This document shows, one piece after another, positions 22,324 to 31,075 of a DNA stretch of 50,773 nt; position 1 is the first letter of the stretch; the number at the start of each line of letters is the position of its first letter. The notes below the pieces were generated by a model that was not told the DNA's origin, searched no databases, and saw only the letters and a program-made list of their open reading frames with translations. The DNA is from Clostridia bacterium (GTDB lineage Bacteria; Bacillota; Clostridia; Oscillospirales; CAG-272), in the NCBI GenBank assembly GCA_017508425.1, contig JAFVYZ010000019.1:1-50773 (forward strand), written 5' to 3'. A program made the position numbers and the translations under genes.

Positions 22324-23145
22324 TTAAGCAGTCACCACACCGTTGAGCGTCAAAACGGCAATGGCCCCCACAGGGAGCATGACCGTGGACGTGGGCTCCA
22401 GCGTAAAGAACCCCTCGGGTGTGACCGTGTAATCGGTACCGGCCACCAGAGACACAGGTGTGCCATCGACCGTAAGCGTTGCCACCGTAAAGGCAAAGCC
22501 CAGGGGCAGCTGGTCGGTCAGGCGGTCCAGCGTAATGGGATCACCCGAATTGTTGGCGATCGTGAACTGATAAGAAATGCTCTGCCCAACGTCGGCCGTT
22601 TCGGGTGCGGTTTTGACAATGCTGAGCGGGGTGCGCGTGATGACAGCGATACCCCCGTCACTGATGGTGGGCCCGGTCGGGCTTCCCTCATTGGCAGCGC
22701 CGATAGCGGTAGATACGATCTCGTTTGCAGTAGCACTTGTCACGGTAGCGCTGTAGGTCAGATAAACAAAGCCCCCGGCCGGGATGGCCGAATCAATCAC
22801 AAAGGTGATGGGCGAGTTTTGAGTGGCGGTCACGGGCACGGCGATCACACCGGTGCCTGCATACAAAAAGGCGCCGGCACTCCCCGGCACGTTAGTGAGC
22901 TCGCCGCCCGTAAAATCAACCGTAACAAAAGGATTGTAAAGCGTGCCCGTACACGTGTTGCGAAGCAGGACCGTATAAAAGATCGTGTTGCCCACGGTGA
23001 AGGTCGTGGGTGTGGCGGCGTGGCTGACCTCGAGCCCGTAGCACACCTCAACCTCGGTCGTAGTAATATTGGTATCCAGGGACTGCTGCTGCCCAAAGGC
23101 GGGGGTAAAAAACAGCGTGCCCTGATTGATGAGTGTTGGCATCAT
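22324..23145 (-). CDS. DUF11 repeat protein without signal peptide
   Basis: 273 aa, beta-rich, Thr/Val/Gly-rich. It contains two DUF11-type modules: one around SHAATPTTFTVGNTIFYTVL and one around SIVKTAPETADVGQSISYQF, the latter a typical DUF11 start. Most DUF11 proteins are secreted wall proteins, but this one begins MMPTLINQGTLFFTPAFG with no signal peptide, no transmembrane helix and no LPxTG motif. Related proteins occur on spore surfaces, which are assembled from the mother-cell cytoplasm, and this region has spore genes; that role is inference. AAGGAAGGAG precedes the ATG pair. A 12-bp palindrome TTTCCGCGGAAA (23155-23166) lies just upstream. Confidence 0.75.
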   Translation of the reverse strand: MMPTLINQGTLFFTPAFGQQQSLDTNITTTEVEVCYGLEVSHAATPTTFTVGNTIFYTVLLRNTCTGTLYNPFVTVDFTGGELTNVPGSAGAFLYAGTGVIAVPVTATQNSPITFVIDSAIPAGGFVYLTYSATVTSATANEIVSTAIGAANEGSPTGPTISDGGIAVITRTPLSIVKTAPETADVGQSISYQFTIANNSGDPITLDRLTDQLPLGFAFTVATLTVDGTPVSLVAGTDYTVTPEGFFTLEPTSTVMLPVGAIAVLTLNGVVTA

Positions 23146-23221
23146 TCTCCTTCCTTTCCGCGGAAAATCCTCCGCATTGACAGGATATGACAATACCCCC
23201 GGGGAAGCTCCCTGAAACGAC

Positions 23222-23252
23222 AAAAAAAGCGAGCCTCGAGGCTCGCTTTTTT
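23222..23252 (-). terminator. Terminator of the TIR-LRR operon
   Basis: Perfect palindrome AAAAAAGCGAGCCTC/GAGGCTCGCTTTTTT, immediately after the last gene of the operon. Confidence 0.9.
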
Positions 23253-23262
23253 ACTTTCGCAT

Positions 23263-23958
23263 TTAGTGCTTTAATGACTTCAGCTGCATGTTGCGGCTTT
23301 CCAGTAATTCCTGTAAATTTTGCGCCTCGGCAATGGCAAGGTCGCTATCCTCTTTTTTTACGGCGGCGGCAAATGCCTTCAGGCCGCCCTTCAGCTGCCA
23401 ATTCAGCTCCGCCACATCCACGTGATCGGTGGGATCGGAATAACGAAGCGCCTCGTAAACCTTTTTCGCCTCAGCTTGCAGGGCGGGGGCAGCGTAGAGC
23501 GAAATGTTTCTTGCCTCATCGATCAGCGCCTTCATCAGTGCCATTTCGCGCTCCACGCGCGTATCGGTATCCGTTACAAGAGCCACCGCCGCACTTGCCT
23601 TCAGCACAGCAACGATATTTACGCCGAGCGTAATCGCACACGAAATGATCGCGACCCAGCTTTTGATAAAGGGCACCGCCATACAAATTGTGCCTACGAT
23701 GAGGGTGGCAATCACACCCGTGTTGCTCACGCCTACAAGTGAAAGGTTATAAAAGGTCTTTTTGATGTCGTTTCGGGCAAGTGCGAACATCACGCAGCCA
23801 TAATGCCCCACAAACGCTACGGTAATGAAAATATAGCCTACCCAAAAGCTACCATCGAATTTATTACCCGCATTGCTTGGCGTTACAAACGTAATAACGT
23901 TGAAAAGTGCAACCGAAACAAACCAAATGATGCTATAATATAATGCCGTTTTTTTCAT
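23263..23958 (-). CDS. Four-helix membrane protein with cytoplasmic helical tail
   Basis: 231 aa. Four hydrophobic helices fall at about residues 7-25, 38-60, 75-95 and 100-125. A hydrophilic alpha-helical C-terminal half follows (RVEREMALMKALIDEARN; EAQNLQELLESRNMQLKSLK) and is probably cytoplasmic. I do not recognise the family. It starts 12 nt after the SPFH gene with GGAGATG upstream and is the last gene before the terminator, so it belongs to the TIR-LRR transcript and may be the membrane partner of the SPFH protein (inference). Confidence 0.75.
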   Translation of the reverse strand: MKKTALYYSIIWFVSVALFNVITFVTPSNAGNKFDGSFWVGYIFITVAFVGHYGCVMFALARNDIKKTFYNLSLVGVSNTGVIATLIVGTICMAVPFIKSWVAIISCAITLGVNIVAVLKASAAVALVTDTDTRVEREMALMKALIDEARNISLYAAPALQAEAKKVYEALRYSDPTDHVDVAELNWQLKGGLKAFAAAVKKEDSDLAIAEAQNLQELLESRNMQLKSLKH

Positions 23959-23970
23959 ATGTACATCTCC

Positions 23971-25209
23971 TTACAGCTTTTCGCCACATTCAAGGCAGAA
24001 TTTCGCACCGTTTGGCACTGTTTTGCCGCATTTCGGGCATACTGCTTCAAGCTTATGTCCGCACTCGGGGCAGAAATTGCCCTTTGCAACAGTTTTGCCG
24101 CAAGCGGGGCAAACAACGGTGTTTTCTGATACCGTTTCTACCTTTTCACCACACAAAAGGCAGAATTTTGCGTTTGCGGGGAGCGACGCGCCGCATTTGG
24201 CACAGGTAATTGCCTGTGCGGCACCCACAGTCCCTACGGCATCCTGCATCATGCCGCCGACGAGGCCGCCAACCGCACCGCCGACGCCTGCCATAGTGCC
24301 AAGCCCCACGCCGAGGTTGGTCATCTGCCCCACCGCCTCGTTTTGAGCAACCTTTTCGGCAACGTCAAAGCCGCGCTCCTGTTGGTAGGTGTAGCCCTCT
24401 TGCGCGCGCTTGGTGGCAATTGCCTGCGACTCGATCACGGTCTTTTGTGCCTCGGTCTGCGCGTCGATCACGCCGATCTGCTGACGGAGCTTTGCCTCTG
24501 CCACGTCGGCATACTGGCGGAAGTGGAGTTCCTTGAACTTCTCATACTGTCGCTCACCGTCGGGCTTGGCGATGTTGGTGATGAAGAACTGCTCAAGTGC
24601 CACGCCATACTCGGCGAAGTCGCCCACCAGCATCTTTTTGATGGAATCAGAGAAAACGGTCAGATTTTCATCGATCTCAAAAATGTTGATGGCGTTGTTT
24701 TTCATCGCCTGCGCGATATAAGTTTTGATACGCGTCATCAAGAACGCGCGGAAGAAGCTGACCAGCTTTTGCTGACCGAGATACTTTTCGGTGCCTACTA
24801 ACTTGATCAGCAGCTTGCGCGCGTTATCGGCGCGCAGCGACATTTCGCCTGATGCACCGATGGAGATCGGGAAGCCGTAGGTCGGCTCTATGTACTGTAC
24901 CTTGCTATCCGTACCCCATTTGATGGACATTTGCTCGGTCTTGTTAATGAAATAGACCTCACAGTGGAAGGGGGATTTGTCGCCCGTGGCACGGTTGAGC
25001 ACCTTGCCGAGCAAAGGAATGTTTTGCGTTTCAAGCGTGTAGCGTCCCGCGCTGAACAGATCTAATGCCTGTCCGTTCATAAAGAAGATCGCTTCCTGTG
25101 ATTCGTGCACGATCAGTTGTGTCAACGAGTTAAAATCCTCACATGGGTGCTTCCAGATGAAGGTGGAATTGTCTCCTTCGTATTTAATGATGTCTGCAAT
25201 TTTGGACAT
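23971..25209 (-). CDS. SPFH-domain protein with three C-terminal zinc ribbons
   Basis: 412 aa, of the YdjI-like ('virion core protein') SPFH group. Residues ~30-260 form the SPFH/band-7 domain, followed by a helical segment (AEAKLRQQIGVIDAQTEAQK), then a Gly-rich linker (VGLGTMAGVGGAVGGLVGGM). The last ~78 residues hold three zinc ribbons: CAKCG...CLLCG, CPACG...CPECG and CPKCG...CLECG. SPFH proteins form membrane-associated ring scaffolds; related YdjI in Bacillus takes part in membrane-stress responses. There is no clear N-terminal membrane helix. It is 27 nt behind the first TIR-LRR gene. Confidence 0.9.
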   Translation of the reverse strand: MSKIADIIKYEGDNSTFIWKHPCEDFNSLTQLIVHESQEAIFFMNGQALDLFSAGRYTLETQNIPLLGKVLNRATGDKSPFHCEVYFINKTEQMSIKWGTDSKVQYIEPTYGFPISIGASGEMSLRADNARKLLIKLVGTEKYLGQQKLVSFFRAFLMTRIKTYIAQAMKNNAINIFEIDENLTVFSDSIKKMLVGDFAEYGVALEQFFITNIAKPDGERQYEKFKELHFRQYADVAEAKLRQQIGVIDAQTEAQKTVIESQAIATKRAQEGYTYQQERGFDVAEKVAQNEAVGQMTNLGVGLGTMAGVGGAVGGLVGGMMQDAVGTVGAAQAITCAKCGASLPANAKFCLLCGEKVETVSENTVVCPACGKTVAKGNFCPECGHKLEAVCPKCGKTVPNGAKFCLECGEKL

Positions 25210-25236: not shown

Positions 25237-28161
25237 TTAGCTTCGGTACCAAGCATAGGTCGTGTTGGAAGATAACGCGTAGGAATGTACCAAGCCGATT
25301 GCTGCGGTGAAGGGATCTGCCAAGTTGGTTGCTGGGATGCTTATACCATTCTCTGAATACCATCCATTTGTGTTTTCAAAAGTCACATTTGTCAACGAAC
25401 TGCATCCGTAGAATGCAGAAGACCCGATGCTGGTCACACTTTCGGGAATCGTGATAGACGTCAGCGAACTGCATTTGTGAAACGCACCAGTACCGATGCT
25501 AGTTCCACTTGCGATGATAACAGTTTTGAGTGAAGACGGCACATACCACTCGTTATCAAAATAGGAATCTGCGCCAAAAATATAACCAAAGTGTTTATCA
25601 TTTTCGCCGTTTAATGTAGCTCCTACAAAGGGCAACATAATGCTTTCCAGCGAGCTACATTGGGAGAAAGCACCATGACCGATGCTGGTCACACTCGACG
25701 GGATCGTGATGCTCGTGAGGCCCGTGCAACCCTCGAACGCAAAAGAGCCGATGCTGGTCACGCTCGACGGGATCGTGATGCTCGTGAGACCAGTGCAGCC
25801 AGAGAACGCACGATTGCCGACGCTGGTCACACTCAACGAGATTGTGATGTTCGTCAATCCCGTGCAGCACTCAAACGCACCGAAATGAATATTGCCGCCT
25901 GTGATCGTGACAGATTTCAACGACTTGGGAATATAGTACGTTGTGTATATGATTGAATCATAGTGCTGTTTCGTAGCCGTGCCGCCGGTATAGTTGCTTG
26001 TTCCGAAAATGTAACCAAACAAGGTAGAATCCGATTCCGTGGTAGCACTTGCACTGCCGCCTACAAAAGGAAGCGTGATACTCGCGAGGCCCGTGCAGCC
26101 AGAGAACGCAGCAAAGCCGATGCTGGTAACGCTCGACGGGATTGTGATGCTCATGAGGCTCATGCAACAATCAAACGCACTCCAGCCGATGCTGGTCAGC
26201 TTACTGTCCGCCGCAAAAGTCACCGTTTTAAGTCCCGTGCAGCCAGAGAACGCCCTCCAGCCGATGCTGGTCACACTTTCGGGAATCGTGACCGAAGTCA
26301 GCGAGCTGCATCCTTCAAAAGCGCAAATATCTATTTCAACCAAAGATGGGGACAATTCTATTTGTTGCAAATTGTAACATCCACCAAAAGCTCCCCAGCC
26401 AATACTTTTTATTGAAGATGGCAAGGAAATAGAAGTCAAATAAGAATTGTTTTGAAACGCACCCGCTCCAACACGTACTACGGGAATTCCTTCTATCTCC
26501 TCAGGAATGGTGATTTCGCCAGAAGCGGAGCTCGCGCCGTCTACGCAATAACCATCATTATTTTTAGTATAGCGAATACCATCTACCCATTCGTAGATGA
26601 TAACATTGACAATGATGGCAACAGTCCCCGCAAGAATGCAGAGCCCAATCAAAACGGCAAGAGTAACTCTCGCGATTTTTTGTTTTTTTGCAGCTCTTTC
26701 TAAATCTATTTTTTCTTGTTCTTTTGCTTCACACTCTTGCTTTATGTACAATTCTTTTAGAATGATCTCTGTTTGTTTAATCAATTGGGTAGAATTTTTC
26801 CAACCAACAATTTTGCCCAGATCTTTTAAGGCGTCATCTAATAATTCTATTGCAGTTTCCGTGTTTTCTTCTTTTGATTCTGCCAATTTCTTCAATGCGC
26901 CTAAATAGATGTCTTCTTTCTTTTTGTCCTCGCAATTTTTTTGAATAATATTACGATATTCTTGTAGTTGCTGTTTTAAATCATCATCACCAAAACGAAT
27001 CGCCTTTTGATAATTCCCATTTTTTTCGATTTGCGCTTCGCACAACACAAGATCTTTGGGGATTCTTACACCAAAATCGATCATCAGTTTAGCCAAATAC
27101 GCCTTGGCATTTTGGGGATCTTGGTTGAGCACTTGCTCACAAAAGTCGCCCGCGCGGTCGAATTCACCGTCTTCCAAAAACAGGAATGCACGCTCCAAAA
27201 GTGGGACAACATTGACCGCTATCGCGGGCTCGACAGTTTCCACGCGCACCGTTTCTTTTTTGGCATCTACCGCTATTATTTTTTTGATGCCACGGGTAAG
27301 ATCCTGCATAAAGCCGAGCTTGGACATGTCCTGTGCTTGCAGGTGGGAAAATTCCTCGGGCAGGTCGTAAGGATCCATATCACGGTAGGCGGGGATCAGC
27401 ATCTTGCGCGCGCCGTTTTTGATGAGCGCAAGAAAACGGCTCCATTCGTTTTTTACCCAAACGGCGTTGAAGTGCTCAGGTTTCGTACCAAGCACCACCA
27501 TCACCTTCGCGGAATTGAGCGCGGCGAAAATATACGGCTCGTATTCCTGCCCAAGCTTATCCTCTAAGGTGATACGCGAGAAAAAGACCTTAAAGCCCTC
27601 GCGCGCGAGCTCGTGGTAAAGCTCGGTGGCAAGCACGCTATCCTGTGTACGCCTGCCGTTATTGTCGGTTTCTTTATAGCAGATGAACACGTCAAAGGGC
27701 TCTTCTTTTTGCGAGATAGCAAGGATATTCTTTTGCAGCTCGTTGATGGCGTTTGCCTCTGCCTCATAGATCTCGCGCTGATAGCCGTCGGCGTTGGCGA
27801 TGGCAGACTTATAGTCCTCGTCATCGAAAATTGACGTGAACTGTGCACGGTTGACCGTGGGCACGCGACGGCGCGTGGCAGGATCTTCTACATATTCGAT
27901 GCCGTAGCGGCACAGCACGATCGACCAATACGCCTCGGCGTCGGTGGGCTCCTCATTGAGAATCTGCTCAAAGATTCCCATCGCCTTGTCGAAATCGTTA
28001 TTTCGCCGGAAGTGGTTGGCGCGGTCATAAAGGTTTGCGCGGCGCTCGTCATCAAGACGCGGCAGCGTCTGCTTTGTGCCGCAATATTCACAGGTGGCGA
28101 CGGATTGCGCGCTGTCAATTTCCAGCGCCCCGCCGCAGATTTTACATTTAAAAAGTGCCAT
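25237..28161 (-). CDS. Zinc ribbon-TPR-TIR-TM-leucine-rich repeat receptor-like protein
   Basis: 974 aa from the ATG at 28161, which follows AAGGA. Domains in order: a zinc ribbon (CKIC at 6-9, CEYC at 24-27); TPR-like helices (~45-90); a TIR domain (~154-295) opening with FDVFICYKETD and carrying KNEW near 239, whose Glu fits the NAD-cleaving catalytic position; a second TPR-like region (~320-475); a basic stretch, then one hydrophobic helix (~498-523, VTLAVLIGLCILAGTVAIIV); then about eleven BspA-type leucine-rich repeats of ~23 residues (AFEGCTGLTSITIPSSVTSI) to the end. No signal peptide, so the single helix should place TIR inside and repeats outside. Ligand and output unknown. Confidence 0.9.
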   Translation of the reverse strand: MALFKCKICGGALEIDSAQSVATCEYCGTKQTLPRLDDERRANLYDRANHFRRNNDFDKAMGIFEQILNEEPTDAEAYWSIVLCRYGIEYVEDPATRRRVPTVNRAQFTSIFDDEDYKSAIANADGYQREIYEAEANAINELQKNILAISQKEEPFDVFICYKETDNNGRRTQDSVLATELYHELAREGFKVFFSRITLEDKLGQEYEPYIFAALNSAKVMVVLGTKPEHFNAVWVKNEWSRFLALIKNGARKMLIPAYRDMDPYDLPEEFSHLQAQDMSKLGFMQDLTRGIKKIIAVDAKKETVRVETVEPAIAVNVVPLLERAFLFLEDGEFDRAGDFCEQVLNQDPQNAKAYLAKLMIDFGVRIPKDLVLCEAQIEKNGNYQKAIRFGDDDLKQQLQEYRNIIQKNCEDKKKEDIYLGALKKLAESKEENTETAIELLDDALKDLGKIVGWKNSTQLIKQTEIILKELYIKQECEAKEQEKIDLERAAKKQKIARVTLAVLIGLCILAGTVAIIVNVIIYEWVDGIRYTKNNDGYCVDGASSASGEITIPEEIEGIPVVRVGAGAFQNNSYLTSISLPSSIKSIGWGAFGGCYNLQQIELSPSLVEIDICAFEGCSSLTSVTIPESVTSIGWRAFSGCTGLKTVTFAADSKLTSIGWSAFDCCMSLMSITIPSSVTSIGFAAFSGCTGLASITLPFVGGSASATTESDSTLFGYIFGTSNYTGGTATKQHYDSIIYTTYYIPKSLKSVTITGGNIHFGAFECCTGLTNITISLSVTSVGNRAFSGCTGLTSITIPSSVTSIGSFAFEGCTGLTSITIPSSVTSIGHGAFSQCSSLESIMLPFVGATLNGENDKHFGYIFGADSYFDNEWYVPSSLKTVIIASGTSIGTGAFHKCSSLTSITIPESVTSIGSSAFYGCSSLTNVTFENTNGWYSENGISIPATNLADPFTAAIGLVHSYALSSNTTYAWYRS

Positions 28162-28224
28162 TTTCAATCCTTGTTGTTAAGTAATAAGTTATTAACGCTT
28201 TTTCAAATATCCTTTCGGGTTGGA

Positions 28225-29355
28225 TCAACCTTTTTTCCAGTAGTAAGTGCAATAAGTAGAAGTTAAATAAGTCTTAGCGGTAGAAGGAATGCTTAATGAT
28301 CCCGGTGAGAGATCTTTACGAGAAGAAAAAGTGTCTGTTTGACTGACAGCCCAATCATTAAAATCTTGGAACGTAACTGCCGTAAGAGAATCGCATCCTG
28401 CAAAGCAGAATATCCCTATGCTTTTTACAGAAGCTGGGATCGTGATACTTGTAAGCTCTGTGCATTCGGAGAATGCCTGCTCTCCAATGCTCGTGACACT
28501 CGACGGAATTGTTACGTTTGTAAGTTCTGTGCAGCCATAAAATGCACAAGCACCGATGCTCGTAACGCTCGATGGGATTGTGATACGCGTCAACTTTGAG
28601 CAGCCGAAAAAAGCAAAGTTTTTAATGCTTGTTACAGAACTTGGTATTACAAGTACCCTCACTAAGGTGCCTTTTAAATACAGATTTTTTGCATATTGTA
28701 ATGGGTTAGCTTCGCTATCTTCGAACGTAATTTTGCACCATGCGGTTATATCTGTGATACGCACTTCCTTTAAGCCGATACAATTATAAAATGCACCTTC
28801 ACCTATTTTTGTGACGTCTCTTCCGATTGTTACGCTTGTCAAATTCTCGCAATTTGCAAATGCACCGCTTGGAATATCTCCGCCCAGTATCGTTATGGAA
28901 CTCAAACTTACAGGGATATAGTAGTTTATAGAGCTTTTTCCGCGGTCAGAATACGCGGTCTGCGTTACTTCAATTGCACCTTTATAATTGCTTGTGCCAA
29001 AATAGTATCCAAATGGATATGTAAATGTGGCGCCTACACTCCTGTCTTCTGCTTGTATTCCTACAAATGGGAGCGTCATGCTTTTTAGATTAATACATCC
29101 ATTAAACGAACCCTTTTCAATGGTAGTTATACTTGAAGGAATTGTGACGCTTTGCAATTCAGTACAATTTTGGAATGCCGATGCTTTGATTGTCGTTACG
29201 GGCTTTCCTTCTATCTCGGAGGGAATGGCAACGGCTGAATTCTGCCCGTTGTATGCGGTGAGATGGTATGTGTCATCCACCTTTTTAAACACCAATCCAT
29301 CAATTTCGGAGAAGTTACCGTATTGTAATAAATGATGAAGGCAATCACAGCGCAT
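28225..29355 (-). pseudogene. Leucine-rich repeat part of second TIR-LRR gene, out of frame
   Basis: About 376 codons. Beyond codon ~12 the frame reads as the juxtamembrane segment (SEIDGLVFKKVDDTYHLTAY) and about ten BspA-type leucine-rich repeats, ending in STYCTYYWKKG, like the end of the neighbouring paralog. The segment before is only the other-frame reading of the preceding ORF, and no ribosome site precedes its first ATG. It therefore continues the gene that starts at 30812, after a net -1 shift (one base missing, or two extra) between about 29317 and 29345. Whether this is a sequencing error, a real mutation or phase variation cannot be told here. Confidence 0.75.
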
Positions 29356-30812
29356 ACAACCGGAATAATCAGCGAAAGTGCAATGATACGGCTACGCCTG
29401 GCGCGCTGTCTTGCAGCGCGTTGGGCAGCTTGCCATGCCTCCTCCGATTTTTTACGTGCACGGGCAGCTTCCTGGCGACAGCTCGCCGCACGCTTGGCAG
29501 CATCCTTATAGTTTGCAATACTCTCAAACAGTTCCGCGGCAGCAATGAGAGCCGCTGAATCCTGGCACTCTGATGCATACATAGCAGCCTTATTATAAAC
29601 GATCTCGCTATTGCAATTTAGTATTTTTTGTTTGAGCTCATCATCTGCAAAGCGAAGCACCTTTTTGTAATCCGGATCATCGTTCAGCGGATAATTTAGT
29701 TGACACAAATCTGCCGGGCGGCGCACTTGCAATTTTGCCATCAGCTTGCCCAGGTACACTTGGGCGTTTTCAGGATCCTGGTCAAGCACTTTTTCGCAGT
29801 ATTCATTTGCACTTTCAAAATCACCGTCTTCAAGAAACATAAAGACGCGTTTCAAAAGAGGGGTAATGTTAAGTGCGGTTGTTGCTACCGTTTCCTTACT
29901 GGTTCCTTTGGGTGCATCGGCTTCAACAATTTTTTTGATACCGCGGGTAAGATCCTGCATAAAGCCAAGCTTGGACATATCTTGTGCCTGCAGGTGGGAA
30001 AACTCCTCGGGCAGGTCGTAGGGGTCCATGTCGCGGTAAGCGGGGATCAGCGTTTTCTTAGCGCCGTTTTTGATGAGCGCGAGATAACGACTCCATTCGT
30101 TCTTCACCCAAACAGCATTGAAATGCTCGGGGCGAGTGCCGAGAACAACCATCACCTTTGCCGAGTGGAGCGCAGCGAATATGTACGGCTCGTAGGCAAC
30201 GCCAAGCTTATCTTCCAGCGTGATGCGAGAGAAGAAGACCTTAAAGCCTTCCTTGGTCAGCTCATGATAAAGCTCGGTGGCAAGCACACTATCCTGCGTG
30301 CGTCTGCCATTTGCATCGGTTTCCTTGTAGCAGATGAACACGTCAAAGGGCTCTTCTGCTTGCGAGATCGCAAGAATCCCCTTTTGCAGCTCGTTGATGG
30401 CGGTTGCCTCTGCCTCATAGATATCGCGCTGATAGCCGTCGGCGTTGGCGATGGCAGACTTATAATCCTCGTCATCGAAGATCGACGTGAACTGCACGCG
30501 GTTAATGGTCGGTACGCGGCGACGCGTGGCGGGATCTTCTACGTACTCGATACCGTAGCGGCAGAGCACGATCGACCAATACGCCTCGGCATCGGTGGGC
30601 TCTTCGTTGAGAATTTGCTCAAAAATTCCCATCGCCTTATCGAAATCGTTGTTTCGACGGAAGTGGTTAGCGCGGTCATAAAGGTTGGCGCGGCGCTCGT
30701 CATCAAGACGCGGCAGCGTCTGCTTCGTACCGCAATATTCACAAGTGGCAACGGACTGCGCGCTATCAATTTCCAGCGCTCCGCCGCAGATTTTACATTT
30801 AAAAACTGTCAT
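29211..30812 (-). CDS. Zinc ribbon-TPR-TIR-TM part of second TIR-LRR gene
   Basis: 533 codons. The first ~295 residues differ from the neighbouring paralog at only about 18 positions by eye: the same CKIC/CEYC zinc ribbon, TPR-like helices, and TIR domain with FDVFICYKETD and KNEW. The following TPR-like linker is clearly more diverged and richer in Arg/Ala (AWQAAQRAARQRARRSR), then comes one hydrophobic helix (IIALSLIIPVVCAVIAFIIY). The last ~34 codons (from about TVTSPKLMDW) are out of frame with the repeat domain encoded at 28225-29355; read across the shift, the product would be a full TIR-TM-LRR protein of about 860 residues. GGAAG precedes the ATG. It starts 17 nt behind the ribbon-helix-helix gene. 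Confidence 0.85.
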   Translation of the reverse strand: MTVFKCKICGGALEIDSAQSVATCEYCGTKQTLPRLDDERRANLYDRANHFRRNNDFDKAMGIFEQILNEEPTDAEAYWSIVLCRYGIEYVEDPATRRRVPTINRVQFTSIFDDEDYKSAIANADGYQRDIYEAEATAINELQKGILAISQAEEPFDVFICYKETDANGRRTQDSVLATELYHELTKEGFKVFFSRITLEDKLGVAYEPYIFAALHSAKVMVVLGTRPEHFNAVWVKNEWSRYLALIKNGAKKTLIPAYRDMDPYDLPEEFSHLQAQDMSKLGFMQDLTRGIKKIVEADAPKGTSKETVATTALNITPLLKRVFMFLEDGDFESANEYCEKVLDQDPENAQVYLGKLMAKLQVRRPADLCQLNYPLNDDPDYKKVLRFADDELKQKILNCNSEIVYNKAAMYASECQDSAALIAAAELFESIANYKDAAKRAASCRQEAARARKKSEEAWQAAQRAARQRARRSRIIALSLIIPVVCAVIAFIIYYNTVTSPKLMDWCLKRWMTHTISPHTTGRIQPLPFPPR

Positions 30813-30829: not shown

Positions 30830-31015
30830 TTATTTTATCTCAAGGTTTTCAACCGAAAATTCAAGACATTTTTGCACGATTTCATTGCGTGTTCTGCCCG
30901 TTTTCTCCGCGATATCATCGAGCTGCTTAATGAGCTCACTGGGTAGCCGCACGGAGAGTACGGCAGAGTCGCCACGATATCTTTTGCTTGAGATCACGAA
31001 CTTTTTATCCGCCAT
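30830..31015 (-). CDS. Ribbon-helix-helix (CopG/Arc-type) DNA-binding protein
   Basis: 61 aa. The sequence SAVLSVRLPSELIKQLDDIA then EKTGRTRNEIVQKCLEFSVE is a standard ribbon-helix-helix: a beta strand that enters the major groove, followed by two helices. No toxin partner is adjacent; instead the TIR-LRR gene follows after 17 nt, so it may be the autorepressor of this operon (inference). The ATG at 31015 is preceded by GAGAGG at 8 nt; a GTG at 31024 overlaps that site and is rejected. Confidence 0.85.
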   Translation of the reverse strand: MADKKFVISSKRYRGDSAVLSVRLPSELIKQLDDIAEKTGRTRNEIVQKCLEFSVENLEIK

Positions 31016-31045
31016 TATATTCACCTCTCTTCTCGAGTTGCTTCA

Positions 31046-31075
31046 AGAATACCACAAATGTATTACAATTGTCAA
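31046..31075 (-). promoter_or_regulatory. Promoter of the TIR-LRR operon
   Basis: TTGACA (31075-31070), 18-bp spacer, TATTCT (31051-31046). It lies just upstream of the ribbon-helix-helix gene. No other clear promoter was found between here and 23263. Confidence 0.75.

Follow-up and report, generated by a model that had tools for sequence, protein, structure and literature searches.

The window analysed here, a stretch of 50,773 nucleotides that makes up contig JAFVYZ010000019.1 of a Clostridia bacterium (GenBank assembly GCA_017508425.1), carries on its minus strand five genes separated by short gaps, in the order probable ribbon-helix-helix (RHH) regulator, TIR-A, TIR-B, SPFH-zinc ribbon protein and four-transmembrane (four-TM) protein. 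This layout suggests that the five genes are likely one transcription unit. An earlier note on this DNA had described the two adjacent TIR genes, which are present, and had missed the larger unit of RHH, SPFH and four-TM genes around them. The TIR genes encode a zinc ribbon, tetratricopeptide repeats (TPR), a TIR domain, a transmembrane (TM) helix and BspA-type leucine-rich repeats (LRR), positioned as follows (aa, amino acids; ORF, open reading frame).

25237..28161, minus strand: TIR-B, intact, 974 aa, zinc ribbon-TPR-TIR-TPR-TM-BspA LRR (Pfam profiles, hydropathy)
27316..27690, minus strand: TIR domain of TIR-B, aa 158-282 (Pfam TIR_2, alignments)
27445-27447, minus strand: putative catalytic Glu239 of TIR-B (alignments)
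26596..26652, minus strand: TM helix of TIR-B, aa 504-522, K/R-rich on the TIR side (hydropathy)
25279..26538, minus strand: BspA-type LRR of TIR-B, about aa 542-961
29211..30812, minus strand: N-terminal part of TIR-A, zinc ribbon-TPR-TIR-TPR-TM (TIR_2, 1.4e-12; TM helix 476-494)
28225..29355, minus strand: LRR part of TIR-A in another frame, a 376-aa ORF (LRR_5, 7.5e-56)
29307..29325, minus strand: most likely stretch for the frame change in gene A (sequence and EIDG motif)

The zinc ribbon-TPR-TIR-TPR-TM-LRR layout that had been read in both genes is intact in TIR-B, whereas TIR-A is split after the TM helix, the frame change falling between the TM codons and about 29307. The description of a Toll-like receptor (TLR) layout in reverse order was supported by the order of the Pfam domains and by hydropathy. 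PMC7075850 gives the TLR layout as LRR, TM, TIR. Animal Toll and TLR proteins share with the window protein the presence of LRR, a single TM helix and TIR in one chain; they differ from it in that its TIR is N-terminal and its LRR C-terminal, it has no signal peptide, its LRR are of the BspA type and replaceable, and a zinc ribbon, TPR and operon partners are added. With this reversed order, the window proteins fall outside the TLR class as defined by an N-terminal LRR ectodomain, a TM helix and a C-terminal TIR. The repeats are BspA-type by both the LRR_5 profile and the LRR fold, and match surface proteins of gut bacteria. This match would suit a host-directed protein, which would attach to host cells by its BspA repeats and disturb host TLR signalling with its TIR domain, but the lack of a signal peptide, a TIR domain predicted to lie inside the bacterium, an operon with SPFH and four-TM genes and the other tails found in relatives make such a role highly improbable.

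The TIR domains of the two copies scored 43.8 and 48.6 bits with the PF13676 profile (cut-off 28). Both copies have a Glu at the WxxxE position, which aligned with the Glu of the plant TIR 7vu8 (E 0.55) and of the TLR TIR 7ylf (E 2.9e-4), and among 72 relatives found independently of the motif this Glu was conserved in 69, all but L063, L068 and L185. It was also present in all 98 relatives of a set found partly via the motif; the species-genome scan was seeded partly by WV[KR]NEWSR, so that Glu counts on those loci are circular, and the two sets share some DNA (L072 and L168 are identical). The earlier proposal that the Glu in KNEW occupies the catalytic position is thus supported by the two alignments and the motif-independent relatives, and the placement of this residue makes the domain a putative NADase-type TIR. 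Thoeris and other TIR defence systems share with the window proteins a TIR domain with Glu and, weakly, a match to the NCBIfam model for Thoeris III ThcB4, which reached only 25.8 bits against a cut-off of 220. They differ in that the window family has a TM helix, an ectodomain and SPFH and four-TM partners. No Thoeris-like second effector recurred beside the TIR genes among ORFs of at least 100 aa within 6 kb, where SPFH and four-TM genes were the only recurring neighbours; ThsA was not searched by profile.

The placement of the TIR domain in the cytoplasm and of the repeats outside had been proposed from the positive-inside rule. Charge was counted in 84 single-TM proteins, 77 of them complete at both ends: the 15 residues before the helix held on average 6.4 K/R, against 2.0 after it, and the bias favoured TIR inside in 80 of the 84 (three equal, one against). 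The four-TM partner bears on the same point. In five loci (L180, L181, L183, L185 and L184, the last truncated by the end of its contig) this protein continues with an extra TM helix, behind which lie TPR-like repeats and a segment of DUF6273 type (a Pfam scan covered L180 alone). In L036 and L146 its first and second TM helices are separated by an insert of about 300 aa, which by eye reads in part like BspA repeats. If the lysine-rich N-terminus of the four-TM protein is inside, both places that receive tail modules would therefore be outside. The predicted topology thus agrees with the charge bias and with the modules at the predicted external places of the four-TM protein.

An anti-phage abortive infection system in which the sensor reads an intracellular phage product, the TM helix being a mere anchor or the tail lying in the cytoplasm, would account for the TM-less relatives that bear the same tails, and bacterial TIR proteins are established defence effectors (SpbK, for example; PMC12847820). 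The K/R bias in 80 of 84 proteins and the extra TM helix that accompanies the DUF6273-type tail on the four-TM protein argue against intracellular sensing, which we regard as distinctly unlikely.

Two partner genes follow TIR-B.

23971..25209, minus strand: SPFH (Band_7_1) protein with C-terminal double zinc ribbons and no TM helix (PF13421, 7.2e-39; DZR, 4.1e-16; hydropathy)
23263..23958, minus strand: four-TM protein ('TM231'), four predicted membrane helices followed by a helical bundle

By hydropathy, three segments of the four-TM protein exceed the cut-off in the window copy and four in many relatives; its AlphaFold model has a pLDDT of 92, and it matched no Pfam family. Matches of its helical bundle to MLKL and to plant CC/CC_R domains were weak, within the chance range for helical bundles.

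Neighbours were clustered as ORFs of at least 100 aa within 6 kb of TIR genes at 104 loci, many of them cut by contig ends. Only SPFH (58/104 loci) and four-TM genes (56/104) recurred broadly, the next clusters occurring at 11 loci. Where genome_contigs loci extended at least 4.5 kb to each side, SPFH was present in 28 of 33 (28/28 on the TIR strand) and the four-TM gene in 24 of 33. The reverse search, led by the four-TM protein, gave 26 matches in a class sample of 391 genomes and 23 in an order sample of 245. Forty of the 52 distinct places were examined (L168-L207); seven others were already covered (G000 twice, G003, G057, G022 twice and G367), and five weak or partial ones, in G439, G487, G750, G595 and G907, were left out. 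Of these 40 loci, 33 scored above 100 bits and all 33 had SPFH adjacent, compared with 3/7 of the weaker ones. When at least 2.5 kb on both sides was also required, SPFH adjoined the four-TM gene in 24/24 loci; a TIR gene lay within 6.5 kb in 18 of them, another zinc-ribbon protein directly downstream in five, and neither in one. The association also held between genomes: of the 12 in which TIR matched strongly (E <1e-40), 10 carried a four-TM gene. The four-TM gene was present in 18/146 genomes overall (E up to 1.5e-8), from which 1.5 would be expected (hypergeometric P 3e-9, without correction for kinship).

Zinc ribbons are present on both the SPFH protein and its client proteins, the latter including proteins without TIR. 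TIR-less clients comprised zinc ribbon-LRR (L160), zinc ribbon-DUF6591 (assigned by Pfam in L174, L178 and L195, and in L175 through its resemblance to L174) and zinc ribbon-TPR-ribosomal L12-like proteins (L193 6204-8186, L7/L12-like C-terminal domain, 4.8e-14); loci L157-L166, the source of L160 and L163, were chosen for the absence of a TIR match beside the four-TM gene. At L163 (4150-5025), a zinc ribbon-trypsin-zinc ribbon protein occupies the client place beside the SPFH and four-TM genes and, by reading, a cut TIR-family tail lies upstream of it. The own genome has, at L156 (4891-8076), a PF13421 SPFH gene without TIR; next come a zinc ribbon-TM protein, a signal-peptide-like membrane protein and, by reading, an LRR-rich lipoprotein-like gene. 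This set is perhaps the ordinary form of the platform.

A comparable known arrangement is the PspA-YdjGHI operon of Bacillus subtilis, in which the SPFH protein YdjI has no TM helix and is encoded beside two membrane proteins (PMC8581546). Both systems have a TM-less SPFH protein, that of the window belonging to PF13421; they differ in that the window operon lacks PspA and its client carries TIR and a sensor. We therefore considered an envelope-maintenance platform of the YdjGHI kind, in which SPFH and its membrane partners hold a stress complex and TIR is an assembly scaffold rather than a killer enzyme. In its favour, PF13421 is the family of the window SPFH gene and is also found in B. subtilis, where the gene in question is taken to be YdjI; YdjI is described in PMC8581546 as soluble and dependent on YdjG and YdjH, two membrane proteins encoded with it; clients without TIR exist; and a second SPFH gene of the own genome (L156) lies beside a TIR-less zinc ribbon-TM protein. 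The patchy multi-copy distribution, the conserved Glu and the diversified tails do not fit this role, nor does the lack of a PspA gene in the window operon, to which this search was confined, so that pure envelope maintenance appears unlikely.

The tails of the TIR proteins were surveyed in 110 proteins longer than 400 aa with a complete 3' end, out of 127 family proteins (window, L004 and L034-L151), with local profiles built from Pfam-named segments, which weak or other tails escape. The commonest tail in the sample was DUF6273 (46/110 with one TM, 8/110 without TM). RCC1 tails were found in six one-TM proteins (plus one RCC1+DUF6273) and three TM-less ones, and LRR_5 tails in nine one-TM proteins (10 with L054) and two TM-less ones, one of which, L102, shows no more than a weakly hydrophobic stretch. 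InlB-type repeats alone accounted for two proteins, and 32 tails were unrecognised (15 one-TM, including the TIR-A stub, 11 multi-TM and six listed as TM-less). L113 and L054 have one TM each, and L055 has three although it is listed as TM-less. The TM plus LRR arrangement that had been singled out as distinctive therefore recurs, in 9-10 of the 110 proteins, but as one of several tail types. PMC10743442 likens DUF6273 to the C-type lectin fold and names the DUF6273-bearing target proteins of diversity-generating retroelements (DGR) tentaclins. Relatives of the window protein share this C-type-lectin-like module with tentaclins, with the difference that it sits behind TIR-TM in the TIR family. 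RVT_1, the reverse transcriptase profile, gave no match in the own genome (83% complete); on this test the window protein does not qualify as DGR-diversified.

Tails also varied between tandem copies. The N-terminal modules of the window pair are 93.9% identical in protein sequence and the LRR parts 49% identical over 294 aligned residues, with 38.6% identity in the stretch between TIR and TM. Over 300 codons of these modules dS was 0.82 and dN 0.046; the pair is therefore under purifying selection. Similarly, in nine of the 26 within-locus copy pairs outside the window, the N-terminal modules were 89-99% identical and the tails 26-80% (best local alignment); these pairs come from L077, L107, L109, L110, L125, L133 (three pairs) and L146, with values of 95.6 vs 25.8% in L125 and 94.9 vs 25.7% in L146. 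Because dS ranged from 0.4 to 1.3 and dN from 0.007 to 0.05 in the pairs for which they were computed, a misaligned L109 pair being excluded, the substitution pattern points to long purifying selection on the N-terminal module rather than to very recent copying.

Such variability invites a role in kin or neighbour recognition, in which variable adhesive ectodomains would read adjoining cells, and a mismatch or contact would make TIR halt growth. In its favour, adhesive or lectin-like kinds occur among the tails, the TIR part is conserved in several tandem copies whose tails differ, and gut or rumen samples are the source of many relatives. No partner ligand gene was recognised, none having been searched for, and we consider this role improbable.

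The distribution of the TIR family is patchy. Among 146 sampled genomes of the bacterial family, 34 matched it at E 1e-3, 12 of these more strongly than 1e-40, and a single genome contained as many as 10 matches; none of the three same-genus genomes in the sample matched. In a phylum sample of 299 genomes searched at E 1e-40 the only two matches were the own genome and G367. A species-genome scan gave at least 571 confirmed stretches, of which 79 loci were kept. Most record titles named Clostridia or families or genera therein, many of them gut or rumen samples; the exceptions were a record labelled planctomycete, another of Erysipelotrichaceae, and two whose titles give no such name. An 18 kb IMG/VR contig (L151) carries SPFH, four-TM and TIR genes together. 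The own genome has a third copy of 2561 aa (L004), beside SPFH and four-TM genes, whose tail combines InlB-type (Flg_new) and LRR repeats by the local profiles with GLUG-like repeats by eye. Fic, ImmA/IrrE-type and phage-integrase genes lie upstream of it (L004 518-4770) and, by reading, a serine-recombinase-like gene downstream, which suggests a mobile setting.

We propose, with a probability of about 0.5, that the operon, with an RHH regulator at its head, encodes a TIR receptor/effector that is anchored in the membrane and sits on an SPFH platform. The zinc ribbon-TPR-TIR part would be cytoplasmic, a single helix would cross the membrane, and the LRR, or in relatives the DUF6273, RCC1 or InlB-type modules, would serve outside as the sensor. 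The SPFH-zinc ribbon protein, possibly held by the four-TM protein by analogy with YdjI, would form with it a platform in the membrane where the TIR proteins are collected. If the outside domain bound something, or if the platform were disturbed, the TIR domains would come together, and their clustering could lead to NAD cleavage and then to cell arrest or death, or to production of a signal, in phage defence or envelope surveillance. TIR domains act on being brought together, as in SARM1 and plant TIRs; taken with the YdjI analogy, this leads us to a receptor/effector in which TIR clustering would be set by the outside domain or by the state of the platform.

Several observations weigh against this proposal. 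Gene A is frameshifted. At least 12 tail-bearing relatives have no TM helix (8 DUF6273, 3 RCC1, 1 LRR), and in these 12 no segment between TIR and tail exceeded 1.2 in hydropathy. The surface-sensor role suggested in the earlier note is thus predicted for the TM-bearing members and does not extend to the whole family, and, because TM-less relatives carry these tails too, a cytoplasmic location is apparently open to the modules as well. Among loci of the own and family genomes with at least 4.5 kb of each flank, more distant members included, SPFH was present in only 5/14 and the four-TM gene in 4/14; many members therefore stand without the platform. Some copy pairs showed little or no contrast between module and tail (L079, 65.0/63.5%; L082, 60.5/63.3%; L117, 60.5/60.1%; one L109 pair, 61.9/64.0%). 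The family sample is weighted to close relatives, mostly found partly via the conserved motif. No plasmid or phage record contained the TIR family, and viral contigs gave two matches, one of them weak and partial at a contig end. Finally, no PADLOC family matched any of the eight proteins searched at E 1e-3 (best PDC-S66, 0.0021).

To our knowledge, the known bacterial TIR defence systems act from the cytoplasm on intracellular cues. TIR, BspA LRR, SPFH and RHH proteins are known kinds. Among open PMC papers screened by title and start of abstract, none was recognised that dealt with this TIR family, with a TIR-SPFH operon or with the combination seen here, in which a reverse-TLR receptor whose tails are exchangeable belongs to an SPFH/four-TM operon; PMC7159879 mentions SPFH solely in the title of a reference. 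A wider interpretation is tentative, and on balance we doubt it: these operons may represent a class of bacterial transmembrane immune receptors with a conserved zinc ribbon-TPR-TIR part inside and an exchangeable recognition domain outside, in which tandem copies diversify the sensor, zinc ribbons dock on an SPFH/four-TM platform that also carries other clients, and the four-TM protein is possibly a pore or executioner. If the receptor reading is true, a recurring operon joining TIR, membrane and exchangeable outside domain would correspond in bacteria to surface pattern receptors, would link SPFH proteins with an immune-type enzyme, and would offer a clonable test of sensing phages or neighbours from outside through TIR.

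The remaining features lie at the two ends of the operon.

31046..31075, minus strand: promoter-like site TTGACA-18-TATTCT ahead of the operon (consensus scan, 10/12 positions)
30830..31024, minus strand: small RHH (CopG/Arc-type) protein, first gene of the operon (RHH_1, 1.8e-6, over the cut-off)
23223..23252, minus strand: intrinsic terminator-like site closing the operon, 13-pair stem and T run

The small RHH protein is, by its profile match, a probable regulator. Homologues were found in 20 further rows of the loci; with L169 (other strand), L157 (overlap with an extended SPFH start) and the shared DNA of L072 and L168 set aside, they lead the cassette, co-oriented, in 18 further distinct loci, both with and without TIR. 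The promoter-like site is weak, as the region holds 10 such sites against 11.3 in shuffles. By eye it contains AATAC...GTATT, which is possibly an RHH operator. Downstream of the terminator-like site, the window encodes a DUF11-repeat protein (22324-23223).
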